Shown here: piece after piece, positions 10,202-21,085 of the stretch | Layout of the letters: the number at the start of each line of letters is the position of its first letter | Numbering within the stretch: position 1 is the first letter of the stretch | IMG/VR virus record: IMGVR_UViG_3300030085_001448 | Location: 959-46,925 of that record | DNA: 45,967 nt | Origin: a virus | Direction: 5' to 3' (one strand) | Made by a program: the position numbers and the translations under genes | Notes under the pieces: generated by a model | The model's database searches: none | Told to the model about the DNA's origin: nothing | What the model saw: only the letters and a program-made list of their open reading frames with translations

Positions 10202-10367
10202 TACTCAAATCTGGCCGACTGAACCACCCATGACCTTTGACGATAAGTACACCGTGTCTCATAACGAAAAAGCAGAAATGCTCAATGGACGCCTGGCAAT
10301 GCTAGGTGTCATGGCTGCGCTTGGTGCGTACGCCTTGACTGGACAAATTATCCCCGGAGTTTGGTAA
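10194..10367 (+). CDS. hli: high-light-inducible protein (Hli)
   Basis: A 57-aa one-helix chlorophyll-binding protein. The family motif is clear: EKAEMLNGRLAMLGVMAALG, with the ExxNGRxAM core that binds chlorophyll and pairs helices in the thylakoid membrane. The remaining sequence ends in a short hydrophobic tail. Hli proteins protect photosystem II and bound pigment during light stress; phage copies are thought to keep photosynthesis running during infection. The ATG at 10194 overlaps the previous gene, and its stop overlaps the next ATG (TAATG). With psbA it forms the usual cyanophage photosynthesis pair. Confidence 0.95.
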   Translation: MNDTQIWPTEPPMTFDDKYTVSHNEKAEMLNGRLAMLGVMAALGAYALTGQIIPGVW

Positions 10368-11264: not shown

Positions 11265-12338
11265 ATGACCGCTGTACTTCAACAACAACAGAGGTCTACC
11301 TGGGATGAGTTTTGCTCCTGGGTAACCTCAACTAACAATCGACTTTATGTCGGCTGGTTTGGGATCCTAATGATTCCGTGCCTGCTGGCTGCAACTATTT
11401 GCTTCATCACTGCTTTTGTAGCAGCACCTCCTGTTGATATTGATGGAATCAGAGAACCTGTCGCAGGCTCCCTTCTGTATGGAAACAACATCATATCGGG
11501 AGCCGTCGTTCCGAGCAGCAATGCCATCGGACTACACTTCTACCCAATTTGGGAAGCTAATACACTTGATGAATGGCTCTACAACGGGGGTCCATATCAA
11601 CTTGTCGTATTCCACTTCCTCATTGGCGTCTTTTCTTACATGGGACGCGAATGGGAACTTAGTTATCGACTAGGCATGCGTCCCTGGATCTTTGTTGCTT
11701 ACTCAGCTCCAGTTGCTGCTGCCACTGCTGTATTCCTGGTATATCCCTTTGGACAAGGTTCTTTTTCTGATGGGATGCCCCTTGGTATCTCTGGAACTTT
11801 CAACTATATGCTTGTCTTCCAAGCGGAACACAATATCCTCATGCATCCGTTTCATATGTTGGGCGTTGCCGGCGTATTTGGTGGGAGCTTGTTTAGTGCT
11901 ATGCATGGAAGTTTGGTCACATCTAGTCTTATTAGAGAGACAACTGAAGAAGTGAGTCAGAACTATGGGTACAAATTCGGACAAGAAGAAGAGACGTACA
12001 ATATCGTCGCGGCCCACGGCTATTTTGGACGCCTTATATTTCAGTATGCCTCTTTTAATAATAGCCGCAGCCTTCATTTCTTCCTGGCTGCCTGGCCTGT
12101 TGTTGGCATTTGGTTTGCTGCTCTTGGTGTTTCTACCATGGCGTTCAACCTAAACGGCTTCAACTTTAACCAATCCATTCAAGCCCAAGGTCACGTTGTA
12201 AATACCTGGGCTGACATTCTTAATCGTGCAAACCTTGGTTTTGAGGTTATGCATGAGCGGAATGCACACAACTTTCCGCTGGATCTAGCAGCTGCAGACA
12301 CAACTCCTGTTGCTCTGACTGCACCAGCGATCGGCTAA
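11265..12338 (+). CDS. psbA: photosystem II D1 protein
   Basis: A full-length 357-aa D1 reaction-centre protein for the thylakoid membrane. It has the [18 protein letters not shown] lumenal segment, the D1 core [14 protein letters not shown] (Asp170 manganese ligand), [17 protein letters not shown] around the chlorophyll ligand His198, and [15 protein letters not shown] before the C-terminal processing point. Residue 129 (standard position 130) is Glu in [11 protein letters not shown], the high-light type. D1 turns over quickly in light, and phage copies replace it while host synthesis stops. The 14-residue tail after LDLAA should be removed by the host CtpA protease. Confidence 0.98.
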
Positions 12339-12356: not shown

Positions 12357-12521
12357 ATGTTTGACATTCAAGTAGATGATGGTGGCGCTCGTATTATTCG
12401 AGATGCTCTAAGAGATTATAAGAAGCACTGGCCTGGTGGTCATCCACAGGAACAACTTGATATTGAATTCTTAGAACTTCAGTTCACCAAAATGGTACTA
12501 GAAGCAGAATTGGACGCATGA
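12357..12521 (+). CDS. 54-aa acidic hypothetical protein
   Basis: Starts 18 bp after psbA. The product is an acidic helical protein (MFDIQVDDGGARIIRDALRD at its start, EQLDIEFLELQFTKMVLEAEL later). No known family. A hairpin follows it. Confidence 0.55.
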   Translation: MFDIQVDDGGARIIRDALRDYKKHWPGGHPQEQLDIEFLELQFTKMVLEAELDA

Positions 12522-12523
12522 CG

Positions 12524-12547
12524 CCTACCCATGGAACGGGGGGTAGG
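12524..12547 (+). terminator. hairpin between the psbA and replication blocks
   Basis: CCTACCC (12524-12530) pairs with GGGTAGG (12541-12547) around a ten-base loop. Only TACTTT follows, so termination would be weak; RNA processing is an alternative. Confidence 0.4.
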
Positions 12548-12564
12548 TACTTTGGAGAACTATC

Positions 12565-12711
12565 ATGTCTCAAGTTGAACTTCGTCAACGTGTTCGTGAA
12601 CAGGAAACTGCATGTAAGCAGCAACTTCTGAAGTATCGCGGCGTTTCTTACATTAAAAAATCACCCTATGTAAATGGCATTCAGATCTGGGCTGGAGGAG
12701 AAGGTTGCTGA
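12565..12711 (+). CDS. DUF4278-like small protein
   Basis: A 48-aa frame whose LLKYRGVSYIKK matches the LxYRGxxY core of DUF4278, a short cyanobacterial and cyanophage protein family of unknown function. It is preceded by GGAGAAC, a usable ribosome binding site. It overlaps the endonuclease gene by 38 bp, more than most junctions here. Confidence 0.55.
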   Translation: MSQVELRQRVREQETACKQQLLKYRGVSYIKKSPYVNGIQIWAGGEGC

Positions 12712-14660: not shown

Positions 14661-15176
14661 ATGCTGGTGTTCGACCTGGAGACGGACGGTCTTCTAAATG
14701 ATGTTACCCGTATTCACTGTTTGGTCATTTACGACTCGGAAGCTGATGAAACGTATGTATTTAACGACGAGGGTTCTGAAGAGCCGATCGTTCGCGGGAT
14801 ACAGCTGCTTGAAGAGGCAGATATTATCTGCGGTCACAATGTTATTTCGTATGACATTCCAGTTATTGAAAAAATTTACCCGTGGTTTACGTGCAAAGCC
14901 TTGGTCGTTGACACCCTACTTCTGTCGCGGTTATATCACGCGGATATGTTCGAGGTAGATAAACGCCTCAACAATAGTAGGTTCCCGTTACAGCTACGGG
15001 GTAGACACTCTCTTGAAGCCTATGGATACCGACTAGGTGAATACAAAGGAGAGTTCGGTAAGACCACTGACTGGAAAGAGTGGTCACAAGAAATGCAGGA
15101 TTACTGCGAACAAGACGTAAAAGTAACAACCAAATTATGCGACCACTTCCACCCCTACCTGAGTGGGTCACGTTAG
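14661..15176 (+). CDS. DNA polymerase, 3'-5' exonuclease domain as a separate gene
   Basis: A 171-aa protein matching only the proofreading domain of T7 DNA polymerase (gp5). It shows Exo I FDLETDG with the Asp and Glu metal ligands, Exo II GHNVISYDIP, and Exo III YCEQDVKVT with Tyr and Asp. The segment SLEAYGYRLGEYKGEFG aligns closely with T7. The frame ends just where the T7 protein passes into its polymerase domain, and the polymerase continues in the -1 frame from an ATG 40 bp before this stop. Either the enzyme works as two chains or a frameshift joins them. Confidence 0.9.
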   Translation: MLVFDLETDGLLNDVTRIHCLVIYDSEADETYVFNDEGSEEPIVRGIQLLEEADIICGHNVISYDIPVIEKIYPWFTCKALVVDTLLLSRLYHADMFEVDKRLNNSRFPLQLRGRHSLEAYGYRLGEYKGEFGKTTDWKEWSQEMQDYCEQDVKVTTKLCDHFHPYLSGSR

Positions 15177-16408
15177 AGCACAAGGTTGCGCAAATTCTAT
15201 CTGAACAAGAAAGGCATGGATGGTATTTCGATGAACGGTCTGCATGGCAACTTGCATCGACTCTCCAACAGGAACTTCAAGATCTTGAAGAAGTACTTCG
15301 CTCAAGACACCCTTACGTCGCAGGAGCTGAATTCACTCCAAAGCGAAATAACAAAACTAGCGGCTACATCGAAGGTGCAACCTTCACAAGACTCAAAGAA
15401 TTAAATCCGACCTCTCGCGATCATATTTCATGGATATTGCAAACTTACTATGGCTGGACTCCGACGCAGATGACAGCTACTGGGAAGCCTATCGTCGACG
15501 AAGTTATTCTGACCGAGATTGGATCAGAGATTTCTACGATGTTTGCGAGATGTTTGACGGTAACGAAAATGCTTGGGATGCTGTCGAACGGCACGAACGC
15601 ATGGCTCAAACTGAGTACGACGTCTAGCCGCATACATCACCATTGTTCAGTTGCAACTAACACCCATAGATGTGCCCACAGAAAACCAAACCTTGCACAA
15701 GTAAAAAGTGACCCAGAATACAGACAACTCTTTCAAGCATCGCCTGGTCAAGTTATGGTGGGTGCCGATCTTAGCGGCATCGAGCTTCGGATGCTCGCAC
15801 ATTACCTCGCTAAATACGATGCGGGACGCTATGCAGAAATTCTCCTCAACGGAGACATCCATCAAGTCAACGCTGACCGAGTTGGAATCAGTAGACGTCA
15901 AGTTAAAACAATTACCTACGCCTGGTGCTATGGAGCAGGTAATGAAAAAATAGGTCATAGTTTTGACCCACAACTTTCGTCAGCTAAAGCAAAGAAAAAA
16001 GGTGCTGAGATTAGAGAGGCGTTTGTCTCTGCTATTCCAGGTATGGCTGACTTGCTTGAGGCTATTGATGTAGCCGCTAAGCGAGGTTATGTTAGGTCAA
16101 TCGATGGTCGCAAGATTAATCTAGATAGTCCTCATAAATCATTAAACTACCTACTCCAGTCAGGAGCCGGAGTGATCGCGAAGCGTTGGCTTGTTATCAA
16201 TCACGAAACTATCCACCAAACAAAGTTGTGTGCATCACAGCTTGCATTTATACATGACGAATTACAATTCGAGTGTGCCAAAGAGCACGCCGAAGACTTA
16301 TCAACATCCTTGGTATACAGCGCAGCAGCGGCTGGCGAGTACTACAACCTCCGACTCCCGATCGCAGCAGAAGCCAAGATCGGAAACAACTGGGCGGAGG
16401 TGCACTGA
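15137..16408 (+). CDS. DNA polymerase I-type, polymerase domain as a separate gene
   Basis: Family A polymerase domain, 423 aa from the ATG at 15137. Motif A is GADLSGIELRMLAH, motif B RRQVKTITYAWCYGAG, and motif C AFIHDELQFEC, all intact. Upstream codons back to 15080 are open, but residues homologous to T7 begin near WVTLEHKVAQILSEQERHGW. The thumb insertion that holds the thioredoxin-binding loop in T7 is much shorter here (near FTPKRNNKTSGYIEG). It ends ATGA with the next gene. The gene encodes the replicative synthesis activity; the proofreading part is the preceding gene. Confidence 0.92.
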   Translation: MRPLPPLPEWVTLEHKVAQILSEQERHGWYFDERSAWQLASTLQQELQDLEEVLRSRHPYVAGAEFTPKRNNKTSGYIEGATFTRLKELNPTSRDHISWILQTYYGWTPTQMTATGKPIVDEVILTEIGSEISTMFARCLTVTKMLGMLSNGTNAWLKLSTTSSRIHHHCSVATNTHRCAHRKPNLAQVKSDPEYRQLFQASPGQVMVGADLSGIELRMLAHYLAKYDAGRYAEILLNGDIHQVNADRVGISRRQVKTITYAWCYGAGNEKIGHSFDPQLSSAKAKKKGAEIREAFVSAIPGMADLLEAIDVAAKRGYVRSIDGRKINLDSPHKSLNYLLQSGAGVIAKRWLVINHETIHQTKLCASQLAFIHDELQFECAKEHAEDLSTSLVYSAAAAGEYYNLRLPIAAEAKIGNNWAEVH

Positions 16409-17191
16409 ATGAAGTTACTGGTAGACGCAGACTTTATTGTCTATAAGTCCTGCGCTGCCGCTGAAACAGAAATTGACTGGGGTGATGATGTCATCCTGGT
16501 GACTAGTAAATTTAGCGAAGCGTACAACAACGTTCTTAAGGAACTAAATAAAATCAAGAATGAGTTTATTTGGGATGCACCTGAACTTATTCTCTTCTTC
16601 AGTGACTCAAAGAATTTTAGGAAGAAAATTTTCCCCCAATACAAGGGTCATCGAAACCGTAAAAAGCCCTGTGGATACAGGCGCGTAATTGCGGAACTTA
16701 GTAATGACTATGAAGTTATCAGGATGCCTGAGCTTGAAGCTGATGATGCCATGGGTATCTACGCTACTGCCAATCCTGGCAACATCATTGTTAGTCCAGA
16801 TAAAGACATGCGCCAAATTCCAGGCCGTGTCTACAACCTAGATGAGACACTTCACATCACGCCAGAAGAGGGTGCTAAGTGGCACTTGATTCAAACACTT
16901 GCTGGTGATCAGACAGATGGTTACAGCGGTGTTCCTGGTATTGGTGTCAAACGTGCAGTCGCTTTGTTTGATGAAGATGGTTACAGCTGGGAGACAGTTG
17001 TAAAGGCTTTCACAAATAAAGATCTTGATGAAGATGCTGCATTAATGAACGCTCGTCTTGCACGCATTCTTACATGTACAGACTATGACCCAATCAACAG
17101 AGCCGTCATTCCTTGGACCCCCACCCCCGGTTACAGAATTGACAATGGAGCAGAACTTCAAGATCAGGAGGCTGGAAGACCTTCTTCCTGA
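16409..17191 (+). CDS. 5'-3' exonuclease (T7 gp6-like)
   Basis: A 260-aa FEN-type nuclease. It carries DADFIVYKSC at the N-terminus, LELEADDAMG-like acidic cluster (PELEADDAMG), SPDKDMRQIP, and the helix-hairpin-helix-like LAGDQTDGYSGVPGIGVKRA. It removes RNA primers and degrades host DNA to supply nucleotides. The C-terminal 35 residues share DNA with the nblA-like gene in another frame, so they may be dispensable tail. It begins one base after the polymerase stop codon. Confidence 0.93.
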   Translation: MKLLVDADFIVYKSCAAAETEIDWGDDVILVTSKFSEAYNNVLKELNKIKNEFIWDAPELILFFSDSKNFRKKIFPQYKGHRNRKKPCGYRRVIAELSNDYEVIRMPELEADDAMGIYATANPGNIIVSPDKDMRQIPGRVYNLDETLHITPEEGAKWHLIQTLAGDQTDGYSGVPGIGVKRAVALFDEDGYSWETVVKAFTNKDLDEDAALMNARLARILTCTDYDPINRAVIPWTPTPGYRIDNGAELQDQEAGRPSS

Positions 17192-17321
17192 CGCTGATAA
17201 GAAAGACCTTATTACAGTCTTCATGGCTTTGCAGCGTCAGAATTTTGTTCTCTCAAATACTGTTAGTAATCTAGTTAAACAATGGCCGATTCACCCAGCC
17301 ACTACACCCGAGGTCAAATAG
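17085..17321 (+). CDS. nblA: NblA-like phycobilisome degradation adaptor
   Basis: A 78-aa frame whose core ELTMEQNFKIRRLEDLL then FMALQRQNFVLSN and NLVKQW follows the NblA pattern (LTLEQxFxLR, then a long helix ending near LLKHQW). NblA brings phycobilisomes to the Clp protease, and phage versions are known from freshwater and marine cyanophages. The start at 17085 keeps the conserved ELT before the internal Met (17145), giving a 107-bp overlap with the exonuclease; the shorter form would be 58 aa. No good ribosome binding site is visible for either. It overlaps the next gene by 40 bp. Confidence 0.78.
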   Translation: MTQSTEPSFLGPPPPVTELTMEQNFKIRRLEDLLPDADKKDLITVFMALQRQNFVLSNTVSNLVKQWPIHPATTPEVK

Positions 17322-17581
17322 AAGTATGGGATTTCATTAGAGACCAAGACCTCAATTATCACCTAGGCAATGCTATTAAATATATTTGCAGAGCCGGTTT
17401 CAAAAGTAATAACACAAAGACTCAAGACCTTAAAAAGGCTATCCACTATCTTGAAAATGAACTCCAACACAGCACATTGCAGATCGAAAAGTCTGAGCGA
17501 TCAAGCAATCGAATTCCGATCGGCGTATGGGATCCAGAACAGCATGGACAACCGGACTATGCAACGGGATTTGATCGCTGA
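17282..17581 (+). CDS. DUF3310 protein
   Basis: A 99-aa protein with a DUF3310 domain over about residues 5-65: HYTRGQIEVWDFIRD, then NAIKYICRAGFK and DLKKAIHYLENEL. DUF3310 occurs in T7 gp1.7-like nucleotide kinases and many phages, so a nucleotide-related role is plausible. The C-terminal 35 residues are unconserved by eye. It overlaps nblA upstream by 40 bp and mazG downstream by about 125 bp. Confidence 0.85.
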   Translation: MADSPSHYTRGQIEVWDFIRDQDLNYHLGNAIKYICRAGFKSNNTKTQDLKKAIHYLENELQHSTLQIEKSERSSNRIPIGVWDPEQHGQPDYATGFDR

Positions 17582-17837
17582 AGAGTATCTAGAATTCAGA
17601 CACTCAATGCGTGAAGGATTCGAGCAAGAATTGAAAGAGTTAGCAGACCTTGTGTATGTCTGCTTTCAGTACGCAGAAAATATGGAATGGGATCTAGAGG
17701 AAGCACTTGATCGTGTCCATAAATCAAACATGTCCAAGCTTGGTTTGGACGGTAAACCAATCCGCCGTGCAGACGGCAAGGTCCTGAAAGGACCCAACTA
17801 TCAACCACCTATTTTGAACGATCTTGTCCATGCCTGA
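17457..17837 (+). CDS. mazG: MazG-like nucleotide pyrophosphohydrolase
   Basis: A 126-aa protein from the ATG at 17457, with MazG-fold motifs: LIAEEYLEFRHS, ELKELADLVYVCF and the C-terminal LDRVHKSNMSKLGLDGKP, then DGKVLKGPNY. The EExxE-type and ExxD metal-binding acidic residues are present. MazG-like enzymes hydrolyse (d)NTPs or alarmone-like nucleotides, and cyanophage versions favour dGTP/dCTP in published work. It shares about 125 bp with DUF3310 and 8 bp with the RNR gene. Confidence 0.85.
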   Translation: MNSNTAHCRSKSLSDQAIEFRSAYGIQNSMDNRTMQRDLIAEEYLEFRHSMREGFEQELKELADLVYVCFQYAENMEWDLEEALDRVHKSNMSKLGLDGKPIRRADGKVLKGPNYQPPILNDLVHA

Positions 17838-19910: not shown

Positions 19911-20073
19911 GGTCTTCGGAATGGAAGCCCGAGCTGTACTGACTGAAATGCAAGATCGCTTTCCAGTGGTCACACCTTCACCCGAAGACTCAATTGAAAA
20001 GATCATGTACCGCTCAGGACAACGTTCAGTTGTTGAGTGGTTAGTAAACCGACTCGAAAACAACGATGGCTAA
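19885..20073 (+). CDS. 62-aa hypothetical protein
   Basis: Starts inside the end of nrdB (26-bp overlap) and overlaps the next gene by 8 bp. The product is acidic and helical (MLEVFGMEARAVLTEMQDRF, then SGQRSVVEWLVNRLE). It lies between the nucleotide and the head genes. Family not recognised, but the position appears typical of cyanopodoviruses. Confidence 0.6.
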   Translation: MSTSPNMLEVFGMEARAVLTEMQDRFPVVTPSPEDSIEKIMYRSGQRSVVEWLVNRLENNDG

Positions 20074-21085
20074 ACGGAAAGGGAAAAAGGCTAAAAAATT
20101 TATCAAGAGAAGAATTAAAAAAGCTGCTCGTGATCAAAAGATCACCAAGAATGAATTAAAAAAGATAAGGCAAAGAGCCAAGAAAAAGTCAGTTGATCTT
20201 AAAGAGACTAGGCTAAAGAAACAGGTCAAAAAATTTGTCAAGAAAAGATCCTCGAAGTCAATCAAACTGCAGATCAAAAAGGCAGGTAGAGACGGCAAGG
20301 TAACACGAAAGGAAGTCAATAAGATCAAGAATCAAGCCAAGAAAAAAAGGACTAATACTAAACCACTTGGTATTAAACTCAATACAAATAAGGCTGTTAA
20401 GAAACAGTTGAAGACTTACACCAAGAAACAAGAGAAGAAAGGCAAGAAAGGTACTATTATTAACAAGCCCGCCACGAAAACTATTTCCAAAATCAAAGGC
20501 AAGGGTGGTGCCTTTAAAAAAACTGGGATCAGGGGTGACAAGCAGCTTGATAAGTTTTTAGAAAAGAATGTATTGGAGAAGCCAGTTATTCAGCCTCCTA
20601 AACGCAAAAAAAATACTTGGAGTCCAAATAGAGTTGAGAGACAAGTTGCTAAGTCGTGGAGTAAACGTTTTAAAAGTGATGATTTTAAACCCAAGCGTTT
20701 GAAAGTCGGTGCTAAATCTACTGGTCGAATGGGTAAATATACCGACAAAAAAGGTAACTTTGATCAGAAACAATACCTTGCTGATGTGCGTGAAAGCACC
20801 ATAAGCCGAGCTGAAAAGCGCGGTTTTAAAGGTGACGCAGCGAAAGCTCTTTCGCGAACAGCTCCTAAGATGCCAGGTGAAGTCAAGCCTAAATACGGTA
20901 GTGCCATTACAGACCTCAAGAACAAACTTGGGAAGATTAATTATAAAGATAAAATAACTGAGACTACTTCTAAACTTACTCAGACAGTTAAGTCTGATGC
21001 CAGTAAATACAAAAAAACTGGTCTAGATATTATTAAGCGTCGTAGTTCTGAAGATGGCGCGTTGCCAGCCACCAAACCAAAATAA
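20066..21085 (+). CDS. lysine-rich protein with internal duplication
   Basis: A 339-aa, extremely basic protein just before the portal gene. Two copies of a roughly 50-residue unit occur near the N-terminus: KKAARDQKITKNELKKIRQ and KKAGRDGKVTRKEVNKIKN, each preceded by a KKF(I/V)KKR-like basic segment and each resembling a degenerate EF-hand loop. The rest is low-complexity Lys/Thr/Ser sequence. A DNA-condensing or head protein role is possible from charge. I know of no T7 counterpart here. Confidence 0.75.
   Translation: MAKRKGKKAKKFIKRRIKKAARDQKITKNELKKIRQRAKKKSVDLKETRLKKQVKKFVKKRSSKSIKLQIKKAGRDGKVTRKEVNKIKNQAKKKRTNTKPLGIKLNTNKAVKKQLKTYTKKQEKKGKKGTIINKPATKTISKIKGKGGAFKKTGIRGDKQLDKFLEKNVLEKPVIQPPKRKKNTWSPNRVERQVAKSWSKRFKSDDFKPKRLKVGAKSTGRMGKYTDKKGNFDQKQYLADVRESTISRAEKRGFKGDAAKALSRTAPKMPGEVKPKYGSAITDLKNKLGKINYKDKITETTSKLTQTVKSDASKYKKTGLDIIKRRSSEDGALPATKPK

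Follow-up and report, generated by a model that had tools for sequence, protein, structure and literature searches.

A probable viral NblA gene overlapping the exonuclease gene of a T7-like cyanophage

NblA is a cyanobacterial adaptor for the breakdown of light-harvesting antennae. In the window, which is the whole stretch of 45,967 nucleotides analysed here (positions 959 to 46,925 of the 46,925-base IMG/VR virus record IMGVR_UViG_3300030085_001448), an open reading frame (ORF) of 78 aa at 17085–17321 on the plus strand is very probably a genuine viral NblA gene of a T7-like cyanophage lineage, with a product that would act as an antenna-proteolysis adaptor. This is the best explanation of the evidence taken as a whole. 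The evidence comprises homology, codon-level selection, a fixed genomic position, a maintained start codon and the co-occurrence of psbA and hli in the same genome.

Genomic setting, overlaps and start codon

The source record is that of a T7-like phage of marine cyanobacteria. Family matches in the genome include a T7-type RNA polymerase, a primase-helicase, a family A DNA polymerase and a 5'-3' exonuclease, and further the portal and capsid proteins, the thymidylate synthase ThyX, ribonucleotide reductase and psbA. Over 15.0–19.5 kb, the nearest public genomes are those of S-TIP37 (95% covered, 73% identity) and S-SBP1 (55% covered, 76% identity), and the host is presumably Synechococcus. 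An earlier note on this DNA had claimed psbA and hli for the genome, and both are present: psbA (D1, 357 aa) at 11265–12338 (+; PF00124, E 4.3e-89) and a domain match to the high-light-inducible protein (hli) at about 10239–10343 (+; PF00504, 23 bits, E 2.5e-6). The family A DNA polymerase (14661–16408) consists of two overlapping ORFs, one with an exonuclease-like domain (14661–15176) and one with the polymerase domain (15080–16408); the records of S-TIP37 and P-SSP7 likewise describe a split polymerase or suggest that a programmed frameshift may occur. Directly upstream of the portal gene, a very Lys/Arg-rich ORF of 339 aa (20066–21085) has no Pfam match.

The nblA-like gene begins with an ATG at 17085, and its stop codon ends at 17321. 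Its start lies inside the T7-like 5'-3' exonuclease gene (16409–17191, +; 260 aa; PF02739, E 1e-11; tblastn matches to cyanopodovirus exonucleases), which is read in a different frame. Both the ORF boundaries and the overlap of about 107 bp given in the earlier note are exact (17085–17191, +, 107 bp). A second overlap of 40 bp (17282–17321, +) is shared by the 3' end of nblA and the downstream gene, which encodes a DUF3310 domain (17282–17581, +; PF11753, E 1.1e-16) and is followed by a MazG-like/PRA-PH pyrophosphohydrolase gene of uncertain start (17370–17837, +; PF01503, E 3.7e-5). In all isolates examined, nblA is fixed at this position between the exonuclease gene and the DUF3310, MazG and ribonucleotide reductase genes.

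The start at 17085 is widely maintained. An in-frame ATG occurs within a few codons in 155 of the 167 homologues scored, and several of the remaining 12 have an ATG just beyond the scanned range. The ATG is built from the exonuclease codons TAT GAC, so that a TAC codon for the exonuclease Tyr destroys the nblA start at this position. TAT is found here in 110 distinct loci and TAC in 14, whereas elsewhere in the same exonuclease genes TAC is the commoner codon (672 vs 472), although the loci are related to each other and the comparison is not an independent-sample test. All 14 of these related TAC loci carry the sequence CATGA slightly downstream, which provides a substitute in-frame ATG 6 nt downstream. 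S-SBP1 has a TTG where the ATG would stand. Two other candidate starts were rejected. The ATG at 17145 varies within the family (T-M/V/L-EQ), and from there the Pfam score falls under the cut-off; the TTG at 17058 is unneeded and without conserved support. No SD-like 4-mer precedes the start in this genome, and one was found upstream in only 1 of 155 homologues. Most genes checked in the window, including the capsid gene, likewise have no SD-like motif.

Selection on the frame and its place in annotations

At least 17 named cyanopodoviruses carry a homologue at the same place, and a relative is encoded in 442 IMG/VR stretches. Across 31 non-redundant loci, the NblA frame has a pN/pS of 0.27 (0.201/0.737) for overlap codons 17–35 and 0.21 (0.165/0.789) in the non-overlapping part. 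In the exonuclease frame it is 0.34 upstream of the overlap and 1.5 (0.314/0.207) in the overlap tail, and the control frames give values above 1. This pattern indicates constraint on the NblA frame over the second half of the overlap, where the unconstrained exonuclease tail is passenger sequence. Over the first 16 nblA codons, the two frames can vary only jointly, and neither is strongly conserved.

These values bear directly on the possibility that the ORF is no gene at all but a frame left open by chance, running from inside the exonuclease gene past its end. The length of the overlap, the missing SD-like motif and the several GenBank annotations without the ORF are what such a frame might show. 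However, a chance frame does not accord with a pN/pS of 0.21–0.27 beside 1.5 in the exonuclease tail and more than 1 in the control frames, nor with a frame and start retained down to about 47% protein identity, nor with the match to the NblA profile described below. We give this possibility almost no credence, since the codon-level data (pN/pS and the replacement ATGs) refute it; at the level of sequence, they confirm a genuine gene.

The earlier note had also remarked that the gene is easily missed by annotation, which the public records bear out. No CDS is annotated for it in S-TIP37, S-SBP1, S-RIP2 or AP013538, and other records label it hypothetical. In PHROGs, the ORF falls in phrog_27006, whose function is given as unknown. 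All 41 homologues in our alignment match this PHROG (best E 6.4e-45), which amounts to the cyanopodovirus NblA family. The gene has been overlooked through its long overlap, the absent SD-like motif and missing annotation in several GenBank records.

Relationship to NblA and distribution among cyanophages

The profile search proposed in the earlier note placed the 78-aa protein in the Pfam NblA family (PF04485) at 28.1 bits (E 2.8e-6), a score that exceeds the curated gathering cut-off of 25 bits by a modest margin, and a search over the whole 46,925-base record gave 28.3 bits. The NblA domain covers residues 18–66, and 12 of 15 diverse phage homologues match Pfam NblA as well. With hhalign, the phage family aligned to 16 cyanobacterial NblA sequences at 91.9% probability (E 6.8e-7) over 55 columns with 25% identity, spanning the L-T/S-x-E-Q-x-F motif and the L-x-K..W end. 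Reciprocally, the phage profile matched 36 of 291 cyanobacterial genomes at E <= 1e-3, and several of these matches coincide with PF04485 loci (e.g. G059:C1:2542079 and G120:C6:2552400). A scan of genome contigs with the 3cs5 segment retrieved two cyanobacterial loci only and served as the centre for the wider genome search. Against PDB sequences, the phage-family profile found only NblA entries, with weak scores (3cs5, E 0.0047; 1ojh, E 0.21). The NCBIfam NblA equivalog NF045916 scored 19.1 bits (E 0.0011) on the longer ORF and did not reach its 100-bit cut-off; this is a narrow model, and we do not claim strict equivalence to host NblA.

The core quoted in the earlier note (ELTMEQNFKIRRLE...NLVKQW) is present in the ORF. 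Among 41 aligned homologues, E22, Q23, L63 and W67 are invariant and L19 and K26 nearly so, and the conserved N-terminal and C-terminal motifs of the phage family align to those of cyanobacterial NblA in the hhalign comparison. In NblA, the N-terminal motif binds ClpC and the C-terminal motif binds phycobiliproteins (PMC4103541). The AlphaFold2 model of the 78-aa protein (mean pLDDT 82) has helix 1 at residues 21–33 and helix 2 at 40–66, a helix-loop-helix arrangement as in the NblA fold (PMC7966870). A Foldseek search of the monomer model against the PDB returned eight matches, none below E 3 and none of them NblA; a short two-helix monomer carries little signal. The Pfam match, the reciprocal profile searches, the hhalign alignment and the PDB sequence matches together support the earlier identification of the encoded protein as an NblA homologue.

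The phage protein and cyanobacterial NblA (PF04485; 1ojh, 3cs5) share the core of about 50 aa, the L-T/S-x-E-Q-x-F motif, the C-terminal L-x-K..W and the two predicted helices. They differ in that the phage protein is only about 25% identical, is extended at its N-terminus by a segment (MTxxx...GPPPP) whose codons lie within the exonuclease gene, and has a C-terminal tail partly encoded inside the DUF3310 gene. The closest known system is the NblA of other T7-like cyanophages, in which a homologue lies at the same place with the same overlap at 45–78% identity. Isolates with such a gene include S-TIP37, S-RIP2, KBS-P-1A, S-CBP1/3/4, P-SSP7, NATL1A-7 and others; in S-TIP37 (MH540083) it occupies 12467–12697 and overlaps gene 18. 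We found no substantial difference from these isolates, and the ORF at 17085–17321 adds one more sequence to their group. Viral NblA proteins are also known from the freshwater cyanophages Ma-LMM01, MaMV-DC and PaV-LD and the myoviruses S-TIM5 and S-SCSM1, which belong to virus groups other than the cyanopodoviruses. The nblA genes of marine and estuarine cyanopodoviruses form their own cluster, apart from freshwater phage nblA (PMC9602691).

The best explanation of the distribution is that nblA is retained at its fixed place in one T7-like cyanophage lineage, the S-TIP37/S-RIP2/S-CBP/P-SSP7 group. In Syn5, P60, S-TIP28 and P-SSP10, no NblA-like frame was found after the exonuclease gene, and their exonucleases are more distant. 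Syn5 has another small ORF there, gp30 (positions 2214–2372 of the locus), without a Pfam match, and the small post-exonuclease ORF of P60 (about 2446–2616) resembles it. In S-RIP1 (HQ317388, about 1000–1500), the reading frame of nblA seems to shift close to an A-run, and the next ORF encodes an HNH endonuclease instead of DUF3310; since the exonuclease match of this phage is likewise broken in two, a sequencing error is possible. P-GSP1 (HQ332140, about 2180–2400), a phage of Prochlorococcus MED4, carries a diverged NblA-like ORF in which the E-Q motif has become H-Q.

Viral nblA genes are already in the literature, so that the ORF, although correctly identified, is a further member of a published group. 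According to PMC9602691, nblA had been predicted by Nadel et al. (2019) for 14 cyanopodovirus isolates as well as for the myovirus S-TIM5; judged by virus group and counts as cited there, their gene list presumably covers the family described here. The function of viral NblA is the subject of Nadel et al. (2025, Nature 648:434), as cited in PMC13386980 and PMC12892361.

Proposed function and significance

The most likely function, judged from the family, would be to serve, during infection, as a proteolysis adaptor between phycobilisome proteins of the host and the ClpC protease. Freshwater phage nblA expressed in Synechocystis is reported to have led to phycobilin loss, and so is the expression of other cyanophage NblAs, including marine metagenomic ones (PMC9602691). 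For the infected cell, we infer the following course, which would benefit the phage. The 78-aa helix-loop-helix protein would be translated during infection from a separate ATG within the exonuclease gene and would dimerise. Its C-terminal helix may bind phycobilisome proteins and its N-terminal motif the host ClpC chaperone, and the adaptor would thereby steer antenna proteins to the Clp protease. Antenna breakdown would free amino acids and lower light capture. The presence of psbA and hli in the genome makes antenna removal beside photosystem II upkeep possible; the phage, as the family and papers on other viral NblAs suggest, may dismantle antennae while its D1 and Hli protect photosystem II and keep it working.

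A different role could be sought in the genomic neighbourhood, where nblA is fixed inside the exonuclease–MazG–ribonucleotide reductase block in all isolates examined. The overlap would then be regulatory, coupling nblA translation to that of the exonuclease, and the small protein would modulate nucleotide recycling with DUF3310, MazG and ribonucleotide reductase instead of acting on the antenna. The protein, however, matches NblA and no nuclease or nucleotide-binding family, and in compact T7-like genomes an overlap is itself weak evidence. We regard such a role as very improbable.

The copies in Prochlorococcus phages bear on the target of the proposed adaptor. Prochlorococcus has no phycobilisomes. 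The Prochlorococcus phages P-SSP7, P-SSP3 and NATL1A-7 nevertheless carry the homologue, and in 55 loci of their sequence type, from such phages and related contigs, the gene is likewise subject to purifying selection (pN/pS 0.25). There, residual phycoerythrin is one possible target among others. The protein could be an NblA homologue whose main substrate during infection is something other than, or additional to, the phycobilisome, with the Clp-adaptor fold reused on other host proteins. In keeping with this, the phage family makes up a PHROG by itself and is distant from host NblA, and all four listed cyanobacterial genomes of 1.7–1.9 Mb, which we guess from their size to be Prochlorococcus, are without an NblA match. 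Against it, antenna loss has been reported for other marine viral NblAs (PMC9602691; FEMS review PMC12892361), and the isolates nearest to the window infect Synechococcus, which bears phycobilisomes. We consider such a shift of substrate unlikely, and hold the same view of the broader idea that the cyanopodovirus NblA lineage is a Clp adaptor with targets beyond phycobilisome proteins; action on the antenna is the reading we prefer.

Viral NblA is one route by which ocean viruses reshape host light harvesting, and global photosynthetic light capture is cut by up to 5% according to a review (PMC12892361) citing the 2025 Nature paper. To the published group, the ORF at 17085–17321 adds a carrier and codon-level evidence for the frame as a gene and for its start. 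The conserved Prochlorococcus-phage copies raise a testable question on the target of NblA.
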